A program made the translations under genes and the position numbers. 64,000 nucleotides of DNA, taken from assembly GCF_001442805.1 (NCBI RefSeq), contig NZ_CP011131.1, positions 744,001 through 808,000 of the forward strand, in the 5' to 3' direction. Under the pieces are notes generated by a model. That model saw nothing but the letters and a program-made list of their open reading frames with translations, was not told the origin of the DNA and searched no databases. Positions within the stretch are counted from its first letter, which is position 1, and each line of letters opens with the position of its first letter. Below, one piece after another: positions 15,651-28,227 of this stretch. This DNA is from Lysobacter gummosus (GTDB lineage: Bacteria; Pseudomonadota; Gammaproteobacteria; Xanthomonadales; Xanthomonadaceae).

Positions 15651-16208
15651 ATGGAACGTACAGGACTCGAACGTCCCGATTTCAAGGCCGCCGATGAAAT
15701 GTTCGCCAACGCGTGGCGGGCGAGCCTGCCGGAGCTGGAAGCGCGGGCGCGGCGCTTCGCCGAAGGCCAGCGCGACCGCGCCGAGGAATTGCTGGCCAAT
15801 ACCGCGATCAAGGCCCTGCTGTTCATGCGCCGCTCGCCGCAGACCATCACCGATCCGTGCGGCTTCCTGTTCGTGGTGCTGCGTCACGTATTTCTCGACA
15901 GCGTGCGCCGGCGCGGGCGCGACCGCGAGGTGTTCGACCGCAACCGCGAGGTCGATGGCGACTCGGCCGGTTTCGCCCACGACGGCCTGACCGCCTTGCA
16001 GAAGCTGGAACTGGACCAGCAGCTCGACCGCGTGGTCGATGCGGTGGCGCGGATGAGCCGCGAGCAACGGCGCTTGTTCGCCTACCGCTTCATCGACGAC
16101 CTGCCGTATCCGGTGATCGCCGAGAAACTGCACATCAATCAGCCGCTGGCGCGCAAACGGGTGGAGCTGCTGCGCAATCGCCTGAAGCTGGTGATGTCGC
16201 GCGATTGA
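15651..16208 (+). CDS. Sigma-70 family protein heading the R-body locus
   Basis: The 185-residue protein resembles ECF-type sigma factors: a helical region 2 (about 45-90, TDPCGFLFVVLRHVFLDSVR) and a region 4 helix-turn-helix (about 125-180, with MSREQRRLFAYRFIDDLPY and VIAEKLHINQPLARKRVELL). The start at 15651 has CAGGAGAG ten bases upstream; GTG at 15648 is an alternative. It is followed by the RebB genes on the same strand after 92 bases. It is probably the activator of R-body expression; that role is inferred from position. No anti-sigma gene is beside it. Confidence 0.85.
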   Translation: MERTGLERPDFKAADEMFANAWRASLPELEARARRFAEGQRDRAEELLANTAIKALLFMRRSPQTITDPCGFLFVVLRHVFLDSVRRRGRDREVFDRNREVDGDSAGFAHDGLTALQKLELDQQLDRVVDAVARMSREQRRLFAYRFIDDLPYPVIAEKLHINQPLARKRVELLRNRLKLVMSRD

Positions 16209-16300: not shown

Positions 16301-16534
16301 ATGGCCGATACCCCCGTCAACTCGCAGATCACCGACGCCGTCACCCAGACCAACGTCAAGGTGGTCGCCGAAGCGCCGGCGCAGGCCATCGCTTCGTTGT
16401 ACCAGGTGTCCAGCCATTCCACGGGCCTGGCCTTGCAGAACGCCGTGCACAGCCAGCAGGTGCTCAATCAGATCTCGACCGCGGTGGTGTCCAAGGCGGT
16501 GCAGCTGATCATGGCGGTGGGCGACAAGACGTGA
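16301..16534 (+). CDS. RebB family R-body protein, short
   Basis: The 77-residue protein shows the RebB family pattern NSQITDAVTQTNVKVVAEAP followed by SSHSTGLALQNAVHSQQ. RebB proteins polymerise into R-bodies, ribbons coiled inside the cell that unroll under acid and break membranes, first described in Caedibacter symbionts of Paramecium. This copy lacks the C-terminal 30 residues present in the two copies at 21159 and 21617. AAGGA lies eight bases upstream of the ATG. It is the first structural gene of the locus. Confidence 0.9.
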   Translation: MADTPVNSQITDAVTQTNVKVVAEAPAQAIASLYQVSSHSTGLALQNAVHSQQVLNQISTAVVSKAVQLIMAVGDKT

Positions 16535-16604: not shown

Positions 16605-17603
16605 ATGACGTTCTGGTTCGGTAAAGACAAGGACCCCGCGGCGCCGGCGAGCGGCGTTGCCGCGCCTTCGCCCGCGGTCGGCGCGCCGCCAGCCGCGGCG
16701 GTCGCGCCCGAGTCGGTTGCGTCTTCGCCTGCGGCGCCGACGTTGGCCGCGACTGCGGAAGTCGCGCCCGCGTCGTCTGCGCCCGCTGCCGTTGCCGCGG
16801 CCGCCGCGCCAGCCGCGTCTCCTGTCACGCCATCGCCTGGCGGTGGTGCGGCCGCGTCGTCGCCACCGTCCTCCGGCGGCGACGCGACCGCGCCTTTGGC
16901 CGCAGCCGCTACGCCTGCATCAACCGCCGCGCCGAACTCGAACGCGAGCACGAACGCGTCCAACGCGGCGCCCGCGAACGCAGCCGCGGCCGATCCGAGT
17001 CCGAGTCCGACCGCCGCCGCCGCCACGCCATCGCCTGTATTCGCCGCCGCGCCGCCGAAAACACCGCTGGCGGCGGCGCGCGAACGCGCGGCCCAGGGCG
17101 GCGGCACGACACCGCCGGGAGCATCGGCAACGCCGCCCACTACGCCGCCGACAACACCACCGACACCGCCGCCGCCGCCCCCGCCGCCGCCGACCGACGC
17201 GCTCAATCAGAAGATCGTGCAGGCGGTGCAGTTCACCAACGCCGAAATCGCGTCGTACTCGCCTTCGCAGATCGCCACCGGCCCGGACATGATGATCAGC
17301 CAGGCCGCCGGCCTGGTCGCGCAATCGGCCGCGGTGTATTTCGACGGCGTCACCAAGATGGCGCTGGCCAGCCAGGGCGTGCTGATAAAGCAAATGACGC
17401 AGGAACTGGTCGAAGGCAACATCGAACCGGCCGCGGAAGACGCTTTGGGCATCCTCGCCACGGACATCTTCATTGCCGCCGCCGCCGCCGTCGCCGCCGC
17501 CGCGGGCGCGATGGAAGCCGCATCGGCGAGCTACGCCATCGATCAAATCGACAAGAGCATCGACAAGTACTCCACCTTGTTGCAGAACCGCAAGAGTTCC
17601 TGA
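16605..17603 (+). CDS. RebB-domain protein with long Pro/Ala-rich leader
   Basis: The 332-residue protein begins with WFGKDKDP, then a low-complexity stretch rich in Ala, Pro, Ser and Thr (about residues 10-195) ending in a run of prolines. From residue 200 a RebB-type domain follows, with NQKIVQAVQFTNAEIASYSP and AAGLVAQSAAVYFDGVTKMA, then an Ala-rich segment and a helical tail. GGAGAGG precedes the ATG. The fusion suggests a variant R-body subunit, such as a cap, anchor or nucleator with a flexible arm. That is inference. Confidence 0.8.
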   Translation: MTFWFGKDKDPAAPASGVAAPSPAVGAPPAAAVAPESVASSPAAPTLAATAEVAPASSAPAAVAAAAAPAASPVTPSPGGGAAASSPPSSGGDATAPLAAAATPASTAAPNSNASTNASNAAPANAAAADPSPSPTAAAATPSPVFAAAPPKTPLAAARERAAQGGGTTPPGASATPPTTPPTTPPTPPPPPPPPPTDALNQKIVQAVQFTNAEIASYSPSQIATGPDMMISQAAGLVAQSAAVYFDGVTKMALASQGVLIKQMTQELVEGNIEPAAEDALGILATDIFIAAAAAVAAAAGAMEAASASYAIDQIDKSIDKYSTLLQNRKSS

Positions 17604-17768: not shown

Positions 17769-20081
17769 GTGGCTTACTTTTCCCTGCCCTCGCTGACGCT
17801 GCCCTGCTACCGATTCGATTACCACAGCCATTTCGGCGGCATCCTGCCGGTCGAGGACGAGACCGCGACGGCCGCGCAGGCGGTGCAGCTGCCGGTGGCC
17901 TACACCCAGCAAGGCCGCGACGGCACCATCGAGGTCGATGTCAACGTGCAGATCGCGCAAGGCCAGCAGTTGTCGCTGGCCGGCGCGTTCGGCGGCGCCG
18001 CCGATGCCGGGCAGGGACGGCGCGGCGCCTTGTCGTTGTTCCTCAAGGCGCTGGCGCTGATGGAGGAAAGCAATCCGCTGGCGATCCTCGCCGCCAGCGG
18101 CAATCGCCAGCGCTACGAGCGCGGCGAATGCATCGCGGAGGACATCTACATCGCCTGCGTGTGCCTGGTCCGGCGCCTGGAACTGGCCGACCTGAGCGGC
18201 GCGGCGGCGACCGATCCGGTGTTGTACAAGACCGTGCGCGGCGCGCTGGAATCGATCGCCAAGCGCTCGTCCTTGCCGGGCGCGGCCGATACGCTGGCGC
18301 CGCTGCTGCCGACGCTGCGCTACTTCAACGACAAGATCTACAGCGCGAGCAAATACACTCCGTTCGACGATGCCTACCGCGCGCGTTCGTTCGCTTTGAA
18401 GAAGCTGCGCGCCGAGCCCGGCGGCGAAGAGCGCTATCTGCAATGGATGGCGATGAGCCTGCTGTATCTGGAAAATGAAGGCATCGGCCATGCCCAACTG
18501 GCCTTGGGCGAGGACGAGATCCGCGCCGCCAATGCCGTGGCCAGCAGCTACAACACCGCGCGCAGCACCCAGTACAAGCTGCTGGGCCACACTTCGGCGG
18601 TGTACGGGGGCGACAAGGAACTCGAACGCGACCTCAACACCAAGCTGTTGCCGCTGTTCCAGGACGCGAGCCTGACCGAAGTGGTCGGCATCGATCTGCT
18701 CGGCAGCGAGAACAAGGTCGGCAACTACGCCGAGCTGTTCGCCTTCCTGACCGTGCAGGCCAGCCAGGCGACGCCGCCGTTGACGCAGTACTTCGGCAGC
18801 GGCGCGAATGCGCGCGCGCTGCAGTTCGTCAATCACATCCACTGCGGCGAAGGCATGGGCGTGGCCGCCGACAACCGCTCGGCGATCGGCTATGCGATGG
18901 CGTACTCGGCGCAATTGCCCGACGCGCCGTTCTACCGCGCCTACGCCGACTACGTGCTGACCTGCCTGGCCGCCGCACAAGGGCGCCAGGCCGATCATCC
19001 GCGCGGCAGCGCCGGCACCCACGCGCTGTCGGACAATCAGGTCTCGGGCCTGTTCGACGAGTTGTTCCGCAACGACGCGCTGACCGTCGGCGGACTGACC
19101 CTGCGCCGCTACGACGGCAACAGCGCGCGCACCCGCGAACTGGTCGCGTATGCAGGCAAGCGCAACATGATGGCGCTGTGCGAATCGCTGGATCTGGCGT
19201 CGGCGCCGCCTCCCGCGGGCGCGCCGCCGTCGCCGCCACCGCCGCCCGCGCCCAGTTACTACACGCTGCTGACCGCGCCGGCGACGTTGCTGAGCTTCCG
19301 CCTGGGCCACGCCTACTACTACCGCAGCTTCGTCGCCGCGCGGTATCCGGTGATCGCCTTCGACACCAACCTGGGCAGCAACGCGATCACCGGCGCCTCG
19401 GGCCTGTTCGCTTCGGTGGAGGGCTACCGGCTCAATCGCGGCTTCCGCCATCTCGACGGCTATGTCGATACCGACCTGCTCGCCGCCGTCACCGACACGG
19501 TGATGTTCACCGGCTTGCAGGCCCTGAGCGCGGATCAGGTCAATCAGCTGATGGAACTGGCGCGCAGCGCGAAGACCCTGCCGCTGCTGTTCACCGCCGG
19601 CGCGCCGGTGATCACGCCGATGCTGAGCGCGGCGATGGCGCCGATCATCCAGAGCATCGGCGCGGCGAACTGCTACCAGGGATTCCAGACCCTGGTCGCG
19701 GCGATGATCGGCGAAAATCAATCGCGCAGCGTGTGGTTCGCCGCTCTTGCGCGCGCGCTGAACCTGTTCATCAACTGGCGCTGCTATCTGCTCGGCTCCG
19801 ACGCGCAAGGCGTGGAGCACACCGACATCCAGGACGAATACCTGCGCAGCGTGCTGCTGCTGGCCTACAACCTGGTGCCGTTCGATTCCGCGCCGGGCGC
19901 GACCGACGTAGTCGGCACCCAACTGCAGCAACTGGTCGGCGATGTCGCCGCCGCTTACTGGCAAAGCACCATCGGGCCGTTGGCGGGCTATTCCAGCCAG
20001 CGTCAGACCACCGCGACCATCGCCGGCTACAAGGCGCCCGCGTCGGTCGTCACCGTGACGCGCAGCGCGGCCCCGGCCTGA
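17769..20081 (+). CDS. Adenosine deaminase-like protein within the R-body locus
   Basis: This 770-residue protein carries, in family order, motifs of the adenosine/AMP deaminase branch of amidohydrolases: His19-x-His21 (YHSHFGG), VVGIDLLGSE (305-314), His358-C-G-Glu361 (NHIHCGEG) matching HAGE, RLGHAYY (His514) matching RIGHGYH, FDTNLGSNAITG (531-542), and Asp567/Asp569 (YVDTDLL) where NTDDP would be. It is about twice normal ADA length because of insertions after residue 25 and between 361 and 511; the latter includes a proline-rich linker (479-496). No signal peptide is seen. GTG start, AAAGGA nine bases upstream. The function as deaminase is inferred; it might be a catalytically altered relative. 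Confidence 0.75.
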   Translation: MAYFSLPSLTLPCYRFDYHSHFGGILPVEDETATAAQAVQLPVAYTQQGRDGTIEVDVNVQIAQGQQLSLAGAFGGAADAGQGRRGALSLFLKALALMEESNPLAILAASGNRQRYERGECIAEDIYIACVCLVRRLELADLSGAAATDPVLYKTVRGALESIAKRSSLPGAADTLAPLLPTLRYFNDKIYSASKYTPFDDAYRARSFALKKLRAEPGGEERYLQWMAMSLLYLENEGIGHAQLALGEDEIRAANAVASSYNTARSTQYKLLGHTSAVYGGDKELERDLNTKLLPLFQDASLTEVVGIDLLGSENKVGNYAELFAFLTVQASQATPPLTQYFGSGANARALQFVNHIHCGEGMGVAADNRSAIGYAMAYSAQLPDAPFYRAYADYVLTCLAAAQGRQADHPRGSAGTHALSDNQVSGLFDELFRNDALTVGGLTLRRYDGNSARTRELVAYAGKRNMMALCESLDLASAPPPAGAPPSPPPPPAPSYYTLLTAPATLLSFRLGHAYYYRSFVAARYPVIAFDTNLGSNAITGASGLFASVEGYRLNRGFRHLDGYVDTDLLAAVTDTVMFTGLQALSADQVNQLMELARSAKTLPLLFTAGAPVITPMLSAAMAPIIQSIGAANCYQGFQTLVAAMIGENQSRSVWFAALARALNLFINWRCYLLGSDAQGVEHTDIQDEYLRSVLLLAYNLVPFDSAPGATDVVGTQLQQLVGDVAAAYWQSTIGPLAGYSSQRQTTATIAGYKAPASVVTVTRSAAPA

Positions 20082-20129: not shown

Positions 20130-20444
20130 ATGGACGAGAATCTGCATTATCTGTTGCATGAGGAGCTGGAAGGCCTGTTCGATTCGCCGGTGGCGCCGGA
20201 AAAAACTGCGAGCGTCGGGGCGGTGACGGGCGCGGCCGCCATGCCGGCGCCACAACGCGTAACGGCGGCCGAGCCGGCCGTCACCGCCGCATCGACTGCG
20301 ACAACTGCGACGGCCGTCGCGCCGCCGTCGGCGCAGACCGCCGAGCTGGAGCTTTCGACCGAGGCGATGATCAAGCGCCTGATCGAGCTGCTGGCCGAAC
20401 CGAAAGTGTTGCAGGCGCTGACGCGTCTGCTGGGCGTGCGCTGA
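20130..20444 (+). CDS. Unknown 104-residue protein of the R-body locus
   Basis: The protein has an acidic N-terminus (MDENLHYLLHEELEGLF), an Ala/Thr/Pro-rich middle (about residues 22-70) and a short amphipathic C-terminal helix (STEAMIKRLIELLAEPKVLQ). GGAG lies eight bases upstream. Its stop is directly followed by the ATG of the next gene, so the two are coupled. I do not recognise a family. The layout, two interaction helices joined by a disordered linker, suggests an adaptor. Confidence 0.75.
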   Translation: MDENLHYLLHEELEGLFDSPVAPEKTASVGAVTGAAAMPAPQRVTAAEPAVTAASTATTATAVAPPSAQTAELELSTEAMIKRLIELLAEPKVLQALTRLLGVR

Positions 20445-21101
20445 ATGTCGGCCGTGGCGAAACATCCGCTTGCCGCGCAGGCCGCGCGCTCGGGCCTGGA
20501 CGAGCAACTGCGCGTGTTCGCGCGCAATTACTTCGACCTGGAGCTGACCGAGGCGCAACGCGCCGAGCTGGCCCTGCACTTGACCGCGTCGGATGCGCGC
20601 ACGGCGGCCGGCGGCCGCCGCGGCCAGGCCGGGGATGCGATCGACGAAGAGCGCCAGCGCATCCAGGCGGTGATCAAGCAAAGCCTGGGCCGCGCGCAGG
20701 CCGCGCTGATCAGCAACGCCCAGGCCGAGCGCGCGGCCGAGAGCGCCGTGCTCGGCGCGCTGGAACGCACCGACTCGCTCGAAGGCCTGCGTCCGAAGGA
20801 TCTGCCGCCGGGCGCCCAGCCGCCGTTGATCTCGCAGATCGCAGGACGCCTTACCGAGCTGATCAAGGCCGAAGTCGATGCCTGCTTCCAGCAACAGTTC
20901 GGCCCGCTCGCATTGCAACTGCAGGCGGTGATCGACACCGCCCAGGCCAAGGGCCTGCTGCCGAAAAAAGACCAAGACGACACTGCCGGCGACGCGTCGA
21001 AAAGCGAAAAAAACACGGAAAAAAAAGCTGCCACCGCCGCCGCGGGCGAAGCGCGCGACAAGTCCGCCAAGAGCGCGGCGCCGGCTTCACAACGCGATTG
21101 A
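20445..21101 (+). CDS. Unknown 218-residue helical protein of the R-body locus
   Basis: The protein is predicted mainly helical (residues 1-170) with a charged Lys/Asp/Ala tail (175-218) that is probably disordered. Segment ERQRIQAVIKQSLGRAQAAL and the region around 135-165 could form coiled coils. It begins at the base after the stop of the 104-residue gene. No family is recognised. It may be a scaffold or assembly factor for R-bodies, inferred from position only. Confidence 0.75.
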   Translation: MSAVAKHPLAAQAARSGLDEQLRVFARNYFDLELTEAQRAELALHLTASDARTAAGGRRGQAGDAIDEERQRIQAVIKQSLGRAQAALISNAQAERAAESAVLGALERTDSLEGLRPKDLPPGAQPPLISQIAGRLTELIKAEVDACFQQQFGPLALQLQAVIDTAQAKGLLPKKDQDDTAGDASKSEKNTEKKAATAAAGEARDKSAKSAAPASQRD

Positions 21102-21158: not shown

Positions 21159-21482
21159 ATGGCATTCCCTACCGCCGTCAACGATCAAATCACCGATGCC
21201 GTCACCCAGTCCAACGTCAAGGTCATCGGCGAAGCGCCGGCCTTTGCGATGGGTTCGATCTATCAGTCGATGGCCCACTCCACCGGCATCTTGTTCGAGA
21301 ACGCAGTCTCGGCGCAGCAGCAGCAGAACACGCTGGCGCAGGCCGCCGCCAACCAGGGCGTGATGCAGATCTACAGCCTGGATACCACCGCCGCCGCCGG
21401 CGCCACCGAGAAGGTCGCCCAGACCGGTGTGTCCGACAACCTCACCAGCCTGATGACCGTGCTGCAGGCGTTCAAGTCCTAA
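21159..21482 (+). CDS. RebB family R-body protein
   Basis: The 107-residue protein has the full RebB pattern: NDQITDAVTQSNVKVIGEAP, AHSTGILFENAVSAQQQQN, and a C-terminal TGVSDNLTSLMTVLQAFKS. AAGGAG lies eight bases before the ATG, a strong ribosome site as expected for an abundant structural subunit. By eye it differs from the neighbouring copy at 17 of 107 positions. It is probably a main ribbon subunit. Confidence 0.93.
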   Translation: MAFPTAVNDQITDAVTQSNVKVIGEAPAFAMGSIYQSMAHSTGILFENAVSAQQQQNTLAQAAANQGVMQIYSLDTTAAAGATEKVAQTGVSDNLTSLMTVLQAFKS

Positions 21483-21616: not shown

Positions 21617-21952
21617 ATGGCATATCCCACCGCAGTCAACAACCAGATCACCGACGCCGTCACCCAGTCCAACGTCAAGGTCATCGCCGAGGGCCCCGCC
21701 TTCGCGATGGGCTCGATCTTCCAGGCCTCGGCGCATTCCACCGGCATCCTGTTCGAGAACTCGGTCGCCGCTCAGCAGCAGCAGAACACCTTGGCGCTGG
21801 CCGCGGCCAACCAGGGCGTGATGCAGGTCTACAGCGTCGACACCACGGCCGCCGCGGGCGCGACGGAAAAGATCGGCCAGACCGGCGTGGCCGACAACCT
21901 GACCAGTCTGTTGACCGTGTTGAACGCGTTCAAATCGCCGTCCGGCCTGTAA
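21617..21952 (+). CDS. RebB family R-body protein (duplicate copy)
   Basis: The 111-residue protein is about 84% identical to the RebB just upstream (hand count) and ends with four extra residues, PSGL. It starts AYPTAVNNQITDAVTQSNVK after a GAGGA ribosome site. The two genes are tandem duplicates separated by 134 bases. R-bodies in Caedibacter need more than one Reb protein, so the copies may be co-assembling subunits rather than redundant. Confidence 0.93.
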   Translation: MAYPTAVNNQITDAVTQSNVKVIAEGPAFAMGSIFQASAHSTGILFENSVAAQQQQNTLALAAANQGVMQVYSVDTTAAAGATEKIGQTGVADNLTSLLTVLNAFKSPSGL

Positions 21953-22214: not shown

Positions 22215-22988
22215 ATGTCCCTGACACCGGACGACGGCAACGCGGTGCGCCGGCGCCGTTGGGGCCTGGACCGCTGCGCGCTGCTGCGCGGCCTGCCGCC
22301 GACGTTGCTGGAGCACATCGCGCGTCACAGCACCGAACTGAATCTGGAAGAAGGCGACGCGCTGTTCTTCAAGAACGATCCCAGCGATTTTCTCGCCTTC
22401 GTCGTGCACGGGCGGATCTACAAGCTGCTGTACGGGCCCGATGGGCAGGAGTTGATCGTCGATACGATCGAAAGCGGCGAGACGGTCGATGAGACGCCGC
22501 TGCTGGATACGCATTCGCACACCTTCACCGCGGTGGCCTACAGCGCCACGCGGGTGTTGCTGCTGTCGCGGCGGCACTTTCCCAGCCTGACCTGCGATCC
22601 GGGAGTGATCGAACGCGCCCACGTATCGCTGTGCCTGCGTTTGCGGCATGCGGTCGAGAGCCTGGAGACCATGTGCCTGCATCGGCTGGAGTCGCGTCTG
22701 GCGCGTTATCTGCTTTCGCTGATGCACAACCAGTCGCGACCGCGCGAAGGCGATTTCGAAGTGGCCTTGCCGCCGACGCAGAGCATTCTGGCGGCGATGG
22801 TCAACGCCAGCCGGCCGAAGTTGAACGCGCAATTGCAGACCTGGCATCGCAGTGGCCTGGTGAGCCGCAAGCGCAATATCCTGCGCATCAACGATATCGA
22901 CCAGTTCCGCTGCAAGGCGTATCTGGGGCGCGATGCGGAGCGGCCGGATCAACGCGCGCGGTCGACGGCGGCACGGCGTAGTGCGTGA
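22215..22988 (+). CDS. Crp/Fnr family transcriptional regulator
   Basis: The 257-residue protein has an N-terminal cyclic-nucleotide-type sensor domain (about 20-140, with LNLEEGDALFFKNDPSDFLA) and a C-terminal Crp helix-turn-helix (about 170-235, with LPPTQSILAAMVNASRPKLN). It lacks an N-terminal cysteine cluster, so an Fnr-type iron-sulfur sensor is unlikely. It closes the R-body locus, 262 bases after the last RebB gene, on the same strand. Control of reb genes is inferred from position. Confidence 0.88.
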   Translation: MSLTPDDGNAVRRRRWGLDRCALLRGLPPTLLEHIARHSTELNLEEGDALFFKNDPSDFLAFVVHGRIYKLLYGPDGQELIVDTIESGETVDETPLLDTHSHTFTAVAYSATRVLLLSRRHFPSLTCDPGVIERAHVSLCLRLRHAVESLETMCLHRLESRLARYLLSLMHNQSRPREGDFEVALPPTQSILAAMVNASRPKLNAQLQTWHRSGLVSRKRNILRINDIDQFRCKAYLGRDAERPDQRARSTAARRSA

Positions 22989-27725: not shown

Positions 27726-27960
27726 CCCTCTCCCGCAAGCGGGAGAGGGAGTACTTGCGACTCGGAACTTGAAGCCCCTCTCCCGCTTGCGGGAGAGGGA
27801 GTACTTGCGTCTCGGAACTTGGAGCCCCTCTCCGGCTTGCGGGAGAGGGAGTACTTGCGTCTCGGAACTTGGAGCCCCTCTCCGGCTTGCGGGAGAGGGA
27901 GTACTTGCGACTCGGAACTTGGAGCCCCTCTCCCGCTTGCGGGAGAGGGGTTGGGGTGAG
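27726..27960. repeat. Tandem 50-bp repeats built on the CCTCTCCCGC hairpin
   Basis: Four copies of GTACTTGCG[AT]CTCGGAACTT start at 27751, 27801, 27851 and 27901, exactly 50 bases apart. Each unit also holds a CCTCTCC[CG]GCTTGCGGGAGAGG hairpin, with a fifth hairpin closing the array. It is an expansion of the dispersed repeat, not a CRISPR, since the whole 50 bases are repeated. Confidence 0.92.
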
Positions 27961-27969
27961 GGAACGCTC

Positions 27970-28227
27970 TTAAACCTGCAACTGCGGCTGCGCCTGAAAC
28001 CTGCGCGCATAGCCGCGCTCTTCCGCCACGCGCTCGACCTCGGTATCGGCCAGGTCCGCCGCCGCGTACACGACGTACACCATCGCTCCTTCGCGCAGGC
28101 CGACATGATGCAATCGATAACGCTGAGTGCCGCTGCCGGTATCGGGCGGGTAATGCAGCGGCGGCTCGCCGCTGTCGAAGTCGAGTTCGCTGTTGTCGAC
28201 GGTGCCGCCGACGAATAGGGCTCGCAT
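27970..28227 (-). CDS. Hypothetical protein, 85 residues
   Basis: The small soluble protein has the pattern GGTVDNSELDFDSGEPPLHY near the start and ends in a Gln-rich tail. It is acidic in the middle, with no membrane segment. AGGAG-like sequence GGAGCGACAAC precedes the ATG on the minus strand. I do not recognise a family. It lies between the repeat array and the TspO-like gene. Confidence 0.65.
   Translation of the reverse strand: MRALFVGGTVDNSELDFDSGEPPLHYPPDTGSGTQRYRLHHVGLREGAMVYVVYAAADLADTEVERVAEERGYARRFQAQPQLQV

Follow-up and report, generated by a model that had tools for sequence, protein, structure and literature searches.

The gene considered here lies at positions 17769-20081, on the plus strand, of a 64,000-nucleotide stretch of Lysobacter gummosus DNA (the window, 744001-808000 of a single-contig 6.06 Mb genome). 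It has a GTG start with AAAGGA a short way upstream and 770 codons ahead of the stop at 20081, and its 770-residue product has the predicted fold of adenosine deaminases (ADA), appears to be a metal-dependent hydrolase and probably a deaminase, and is encoded among R-body (Reb) genes. H19, H21, H358 and D678 are the likely metal ligands, and E361 and H514 the likely catalytic residues. The start site is common to aligned relatives, most of which begin MAYF. The protein has no match in Pfam, NCBIfam, PADLOC or PHROGs, and a search of 5.8 billion proteins, in which scoring covered the 8000 candidates with most words in common with the query, gave 104 entries including the query itself, most of them of 713-791 residues; a profile search for relatives again gave 104. 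Named relatives come from Lysobacter, Lysobacteraceae, Luteimonas, Xanthomonas, Dyella, Azoarcus and Pseudomonas aeruginosa, the closest being those of Lysobacter (the L003 locus of Lysobacter sp. ISL-50 is 97% identical), and an alphaproteobacterial relative used as query found 20 entries including itself, for example in Thalassovita and Pseudophaeobacter. The relatives are annotated as hypothetical or uncharacterised with the exception of P0104 from P. aeruginosa, a chimera named cobyric acid synthase: it and P0103, of 744 residues each, join a CobQ-type N-terminus to a deaminase-like C-terminal part at an apparent fusion junction.

Nine genes, all on the plus strand, make up the cluster. 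An extracytoplasmic function (ECF)-type sigma factor gene (15651-16208, the start being chosen within a longer open reading frame; Pfam Sigma70_r4_2, E 5.2e-7), with homologues in related clusters and itself the counterpart of FecI2 in the P. aeruginosa reb cluster, is followed by a gene for a short Reb protein in the RebD position (16301-16534; Pfam RebB, E 1.9e-26) and by a RapA counterpart (16605-17603) with a long Ala/Pro-rich N-terminal part and a conserved C-terminal part. The RapA profile is found in 46 of 53 collected cluster loci, which are not a random sample and in several of which crude gene picking gave wrong frames, so that what is said of those loci relies on profile matches. 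Downstream of the deaminase-like gene come a small protein of about 100 residues (20130-20444), with phmmer homologues in several Lysobacter clusters and no Pfam or NCBIfam match, and a 218-residue protein (20445-21101), coiled-coil-like by eye, without a Pfam match and a candidate adaptor, the profile of which is found in 35 of the 53 loci. In the L044 cluster a homologue of the small protein is present without a recognised deaminase-like gene. Two RebB-type R-body structural proteins (21159-21482, Pfam RebB E 1.2e-29; 21617-21952, E 5.9e-25) and a Crp/Fnr-type regulator, the counterpart of RcgA (22215-22988; Pfam cNMP_binding 3.2e-14, HTH_Crp_2 2.8e-13), complete the order. An earlier note on this DNA had described the gene as embedded in an R-body cluster, and with three RebB-matching proteins among its neighbours it is. 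The sigma factor, the Crp-type regulator, the Reb proteins and RapA are held in common with the group 2 reb clusters (Raymann 2013; Wang 2021), whereas the deaminase-like gene occurs in part of the clusters only; the section on reb-gene synteny in PMC3583457 places unnamed hypothetical proteins, a sigma factor and a regulator alongside. A fourth RebB match of 65.6 bits stands at 1147529-1147723, about 380 kb from the cluster, in a frame of 285 residues.

The linkage to R-body genes extends well beyond this genome. When 84,980 species genomes were scanned with two peptide patterns only, 22 deaminase-like loci came to light, each of which contains a Reb gene. Of 297 genomes sampled from the host family, RebB is matched in 68 at E<=1e-3 and in 67 over the cut-off. 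The deaminase-like gene is present in 25, every one of them Reb-positive, and in none of the 229 Reb-negative genomes (P 1.8e-18, by simple counting that ignores kinship). The protein behaves as an accessory of R-body clusters, found where Reb genes are and missing where they are not. Its place within the cluster varies, being at the opposite end, before the sigma factor, in L019 (Xanthomonas bonasiae) and in L061. At 26% identity, the Rhodobacteraceae relative in L023 again follows Reb genes; behind it are a 991-residue protein (L023:11417-14389) that combines a class III nucleotide cyclase domain with an AAA region, and then a Crp-type regulator. An ordinary purine-salvage enzyme that came to sit here by accident would share its fold with the salvage deaminases, but given this linkage, and a separate ordinary A_deaminase elsewhere in the genome (E 1.1e-93), such an origin is scarcely credible.

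The motifs that the earlier note had listed are located where it put them and in order: HxH (19-21), VVGIDLLGSE (305-314), HCGE (358-361), RLGHAYY (511-517) and VDTD (566-569). They are not chance occurrences: the key residues other than VDTD are kept in at least 99 of the 105-110 rows counted in a 110-row alignment, decayed copies and fragments included, with the rows having a residue at the column as denominator. H19 is found in 104 of 105 rows and H21 in 99 of 105, D309 in 109 of 109 and E314 in 105 of 109, H358 in 104 and E361 in 107 of 110, H514 in 106 of 110, N538 in 104 of 109, and D678, within LLG[SA]D, in 107 of 109. VDTD is weakly kept (D567 in 82 and D569 in 83 of 109 rows) and not present in the five aligned alphaproteobacterial-type relatives.

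An ADA-type TIM barrel is predicted for the 770-residue protein. Its strands comprise 16-21 (with HSH at the end), 241-247, 268-275, 305-310 (GIDLLG), 353-358 (with H358 at the end), 508-513 leading to H514, 530-533 (FDTN) and 563-567, and D678 lies in a bridge that follows a long insertion. The structural check that had been proposed thus gave the barrel, with the key motifs on the right strands and in order; HxH, HxxE and H take the order and strands of the A_deaminase family, as does the metal Asp if D678 is rightly placed. Two large insertions had been claimed, and the strand positions give three: about 22-240 after strand 1, about 362-507 after strand 5, which holds the proline-rich stretch as stated, and about 535-673 before D678.

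Quite which Asp completes the metal site is a matter of weighing. VDTD had been offered as the metal motif, and a strand at 563-567 in the model of the window protein, at a distance from strand 7 that fits ADA strand spacing, speaks in its favour. However the motif is variable, is missing in alphaproteobacterial relatives, and has no strand in the model of one of these, in which a strand at 628-630 instead leads into GSD633; alignments to ADA1 moreover reach residues 742-746, which counts against it. VDTD was rejected, and D678 seems the likelier ligand because of its conservation and the alphaproteobacterial model, a placement we infer from these and the aligned C-terminal range rather than from coordinates. 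The match to the ligands and catalytic residues of adenosine deaminases accordingly stands for HxH, HCGE and H514, and shifts from VDTD to D678 for the last ligand. In canonical ADA a second Asp follows the metal Asp (TDD) and contacts the purine. Residue 679 is Gly in 87, Ala in 19 and Asp in 1 of 110 rows, and because Gly or Ala replaces that second Asp the substrate may not be adenosine.

Relationship to known deaminases is distant. The window protein, P0079 and P0115 have no match to Pfam A_deaminase (PF00962) at E<=1, and the window protein is more than twice as long as ADA1. Foldseek on its own gave a weak result, and a whole-profile hhalign comparison with one ADA a probability of 0.2%. 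Segment-wise hhalign (profile of 97 of 117 proteins) against a 12-member ADA alignment placed HxH, GIDLLGSE/HCGE and RLGHA in register at P 0.027-0.097, of which only register and order are informative because 526-600 and 655-705 were aligned out of place at similar values (P 0.079 and 0.069). The only PDB sequence listed by the profile of alignment A3, 34 rows that reach alphaproteobacterial relatives, was that of the deaminase Cad1, whose E of 1.3 is not significant; unlike that CRISPR-associated CARF-adenosine deaminase, the window protein has no CARF domain by Pfam scan and its cluster genes include no CRISPR genes. From ADGF/ADA2, the secreted adenosine deaminases, to which it is 11% identical over the aligned part, it differs in having no second Asp of TDD, in its larger insertions and in its R-body linkage.

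The earlier note also drew a comparison with RdrB of the RADAR system, and in this the fold held and the defence partner did not. RdrB, a dodecameric shell that converts ATP to ITP in the account excerpted from PMC9994260, has the same fold and large insertions too, which would be in keeping with RADAR-type anti-phage defence in which the R-body cluster serves as a host-suicide device. ADGF and ADA are nonetheless better matches than RdrB, whose Z does not exceed the 15.2 of AtzA. PADLOC found no family at E<=1 and no RdrA partner among eight open reading frames (six of the nine cluster genes and two overlapping real genes), which agrees with the earlier remark that no RdrA-like ATPase is present, and no relative was found in plasmids (tblastn) or viral contigs (pattern scan); the setting is one of R-bodies, and a defence role is very improbable.

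A different kind of evidence comes from copies with a decayed active site. The gene is present in 27 of the 53 loci, in 23 of which the six key residues are kept; one copy is cut by a contig end and three (L059-L061) are changed, full length nevertheless and adjoining Reb genes. L059, L060, L061, P0011, P0013-P0016 and P0019 have lost catalytic residues at about full length, and so are natural pseudoenzymes. In L059 and L060 the D678 column differs between alignments (Gly or Asp), with the other key residues changed in both. Alignment A2 (83 of 105 proteins, from which fragments, read-through variants, the query copy, P0016 and P0019 were omitted) retains P0011 and P0013-P0015. On a tree of 104 tips, made with 22 listed proteins omitted and nine loci added, the changed copies form one clade of eight tips (support 0.79), nested in a clade (support 0.91) with the window protein and P0003, and one tip beside a Xanthomonas protein.

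By simple pairwise NG86 the ratio of nonsynonymous to synonymous substitution (dN/dS) is 0.34 between L059 and L060, as against 0.15 (window/L003), 0.365 (window/L002), 0.29 and 0.30 in four pairs of catalytic type. The cluster neighbours of L059/L060 are more constrained, with 0.28 for the RapA counterpart, 0.135 for Crp and 0-0.04 for Reb. The decayed clade has probably kept its frame for something besides chemistry. This is the best evidence for a structural or assembly factor, in which the ADA fold would serve as a scaffold for capping, nucleating or tuning the R-body and catalysis would be ancestral or secondary; catalytic residues were lost twice separately on the tree, and the gene adjoins that of RapA, an R-body component. 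Against such a scaffold, 23 of 27 loci retain the key residues, these do not vary across the 34 rows of A3 (among which there is no decayed copy), and most surveyed Reb-positive genomes are without the gene. Further, since window/L059 gives a dN/dS of 0.66, constraint fell or changed when the site decayed. A scaffold role is thus unlikely, if by no means negligible.

Whether the protein could itself be RapA, which would bring known phenotypes with it, was considered and rejected. According to Wang et al. 2021 (PMC8322103), RapA (PA14_27680) is conserved wherever a pseudomonad has a reb structural gene, is present in R-body fractions and is needed for effects on the host; a 2026 survey (PMC13430693) ranks rapA as a secondary Reb protein of group S4. 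Of 398 Pseudomonadaceae genomes, themselves a sample of a larger group, 13 have a Reb match over the cut-off; three of these have the deaminase-like gene and 12 the gene after RebD. The deaminase-like gene is not orthologous to PA14_27680 by this survey, and the counts, with the S4 classification, make the gene at 16605-17603 the RapA counterpart, so that the phenotypes of rapA mutants are not to be credited to the deaminase-like gene.

In P. aeruginosa the deaminase-like gene directly follows the RapA counterpart (read-through entry P0080), and the PA14 tags run 27700, 27690, 27685, 27680, 27675, 27660, 27650, 27640, 27630; going by this order it would be PA14_27675. The PA14_27675 protein, as reported in PMC8322103, was detected specifically in SDS (sodium dodecyl sulphate)-insoluble material from delta-pel biofilms, where its level was half that of RebP, and not in the wild-type preparation. 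A counterpart of the deaminase-like protein thus seems to have been seen already in a published R-body preparation.

This bears on a further proposal, that of a regulatory deaminase which, within the cell that makes the R-bodies, would act on a nucleotide signal sensed by the Crp-type regulator, much as the cAMP deaminase CadD of Leptospira affects cAMP signalling (Goble et al. 2013, as mentioned in PMC4398509). A Crp-type homologue is present in 22 of 22 loci, and in L023 of Rhodobacteraceae the class III cyclase domain protein adjoins as well. However a protein in the SDS-insoluble fraction, if PA14_27675 is the counterpart, is not what such a role leads one to expect. The phosphate-binding cassette of CRP carries an Arg, and that of the window regulator reads HTFTA, without one. 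Because of this, and because the regulator persists in the absence of a deaminase in seven clusters of another type (below) and in several that have neither enzyme, a regulatory function is improbable.

Seven of the 13 Reb-positive Pseudomonadaceae encode a C92-like protein of about 210 residues in the position after the RapA counterpart, and a coiled-coil-like protein follows it. Copies are in L033 (3892-4542), L034-L037, L040 and L042, in the slot between rapA and rebP of clusters that lack the deaminase-like gene. The assignment to Pfam Peptidase_C92 (E 0.0078 and 0.042) was obtained in two of three copies scanned, below the cut-off; H and C motifs resemble by eye those of permuted papain-type (C92) hydrolases, making this a second candidate R-body enzyme. 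Across the 53 loci the deaminase-like gene is found in 27, the C92-like in seven and both in none, and 14 have a RapA counterpart and neither enzyme. In three of the seven C92-type clusters this coiled-coil-like protein is picked up by the profile of the window's 218-residue protein (E 1.3e-9, 1.9e-9 and 6.2e-27), matches which coiled-coil composition could inflate.

We favour a reading that makes the protein a metal-dependent hydrolase of the amidohydrolase superfamily with the ADA fold, belonging to some R-body clusters, whose likeliest activity is deamination of a purine- or nucleotide-like small molecule, and that sees it as an optional passenger of the R-body; we give this reading a probability of about 0.4. 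Cargo is preferred because it best unites the linkage, the optional and interchangeable nature of the gene and the published co-purification. Under it the sigma factor and the Crp-type regulator would turn the cluster on, and the Reb proteins would form the ribbon together with RapA. The enzyme might be attached through RapA or through the adjoining 218-residue protein, and opening of the ribbon, for example in the acidic vacuole of a predator, would then expose or release it to modify a target there. Of all this, the gene, its predicted fold, the conserved centre, the tie to Reb genes and the alternation with a C92-like protein are observations; the presence in R-body preparations follows from gene order and a published experiment, and catalysis, substrate, binding partner and delivery are proposals. 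A bolder and more doubtful extension is that R-bodies of this lineage are enzyme carriers, with a slot next to rapA occupied either by the ADA-fold deaminase or by a permuted papain-like hydrolase of C92 type, a shared adaptor that ties either to the ribbon, and delivery on extension; if so, the active factor associated with R-bodies would be encoded in the cluster itself.

As a whole the interpretation in the earlier note, that a deaminase associated with R-bodies would be new, is partly supported. Searches of the open-licence literature found no earlier report that joins R-bodies with adenosine deaminase or deaminase; the word deaminase does not occur in PMC3583457 or PMC13430693, and PMC8322103 is not among the papers having both terms. 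In the searches made here the deaminase-like protein turned up with R-body genes only, which makes it a candidate R-body-carried enzyme. What R-bodies release or carry is, according to the introduction of PMC8322103, unidentified. To this question the analysis supplies a fold, likely catalytic residues, a second candidate enzyme for the same slot and a published R-body preparation with an apparent counterpart, which together open it to a simple assay and to gene deletion. The lineages with decayed sites offer a natural control for catalytic versus structural roles. Elsewhere in the window, tandem 50-bp repeats (CCCTCTCCCGCTTGCGGGAGAGGG...) occupy 27726-27975.
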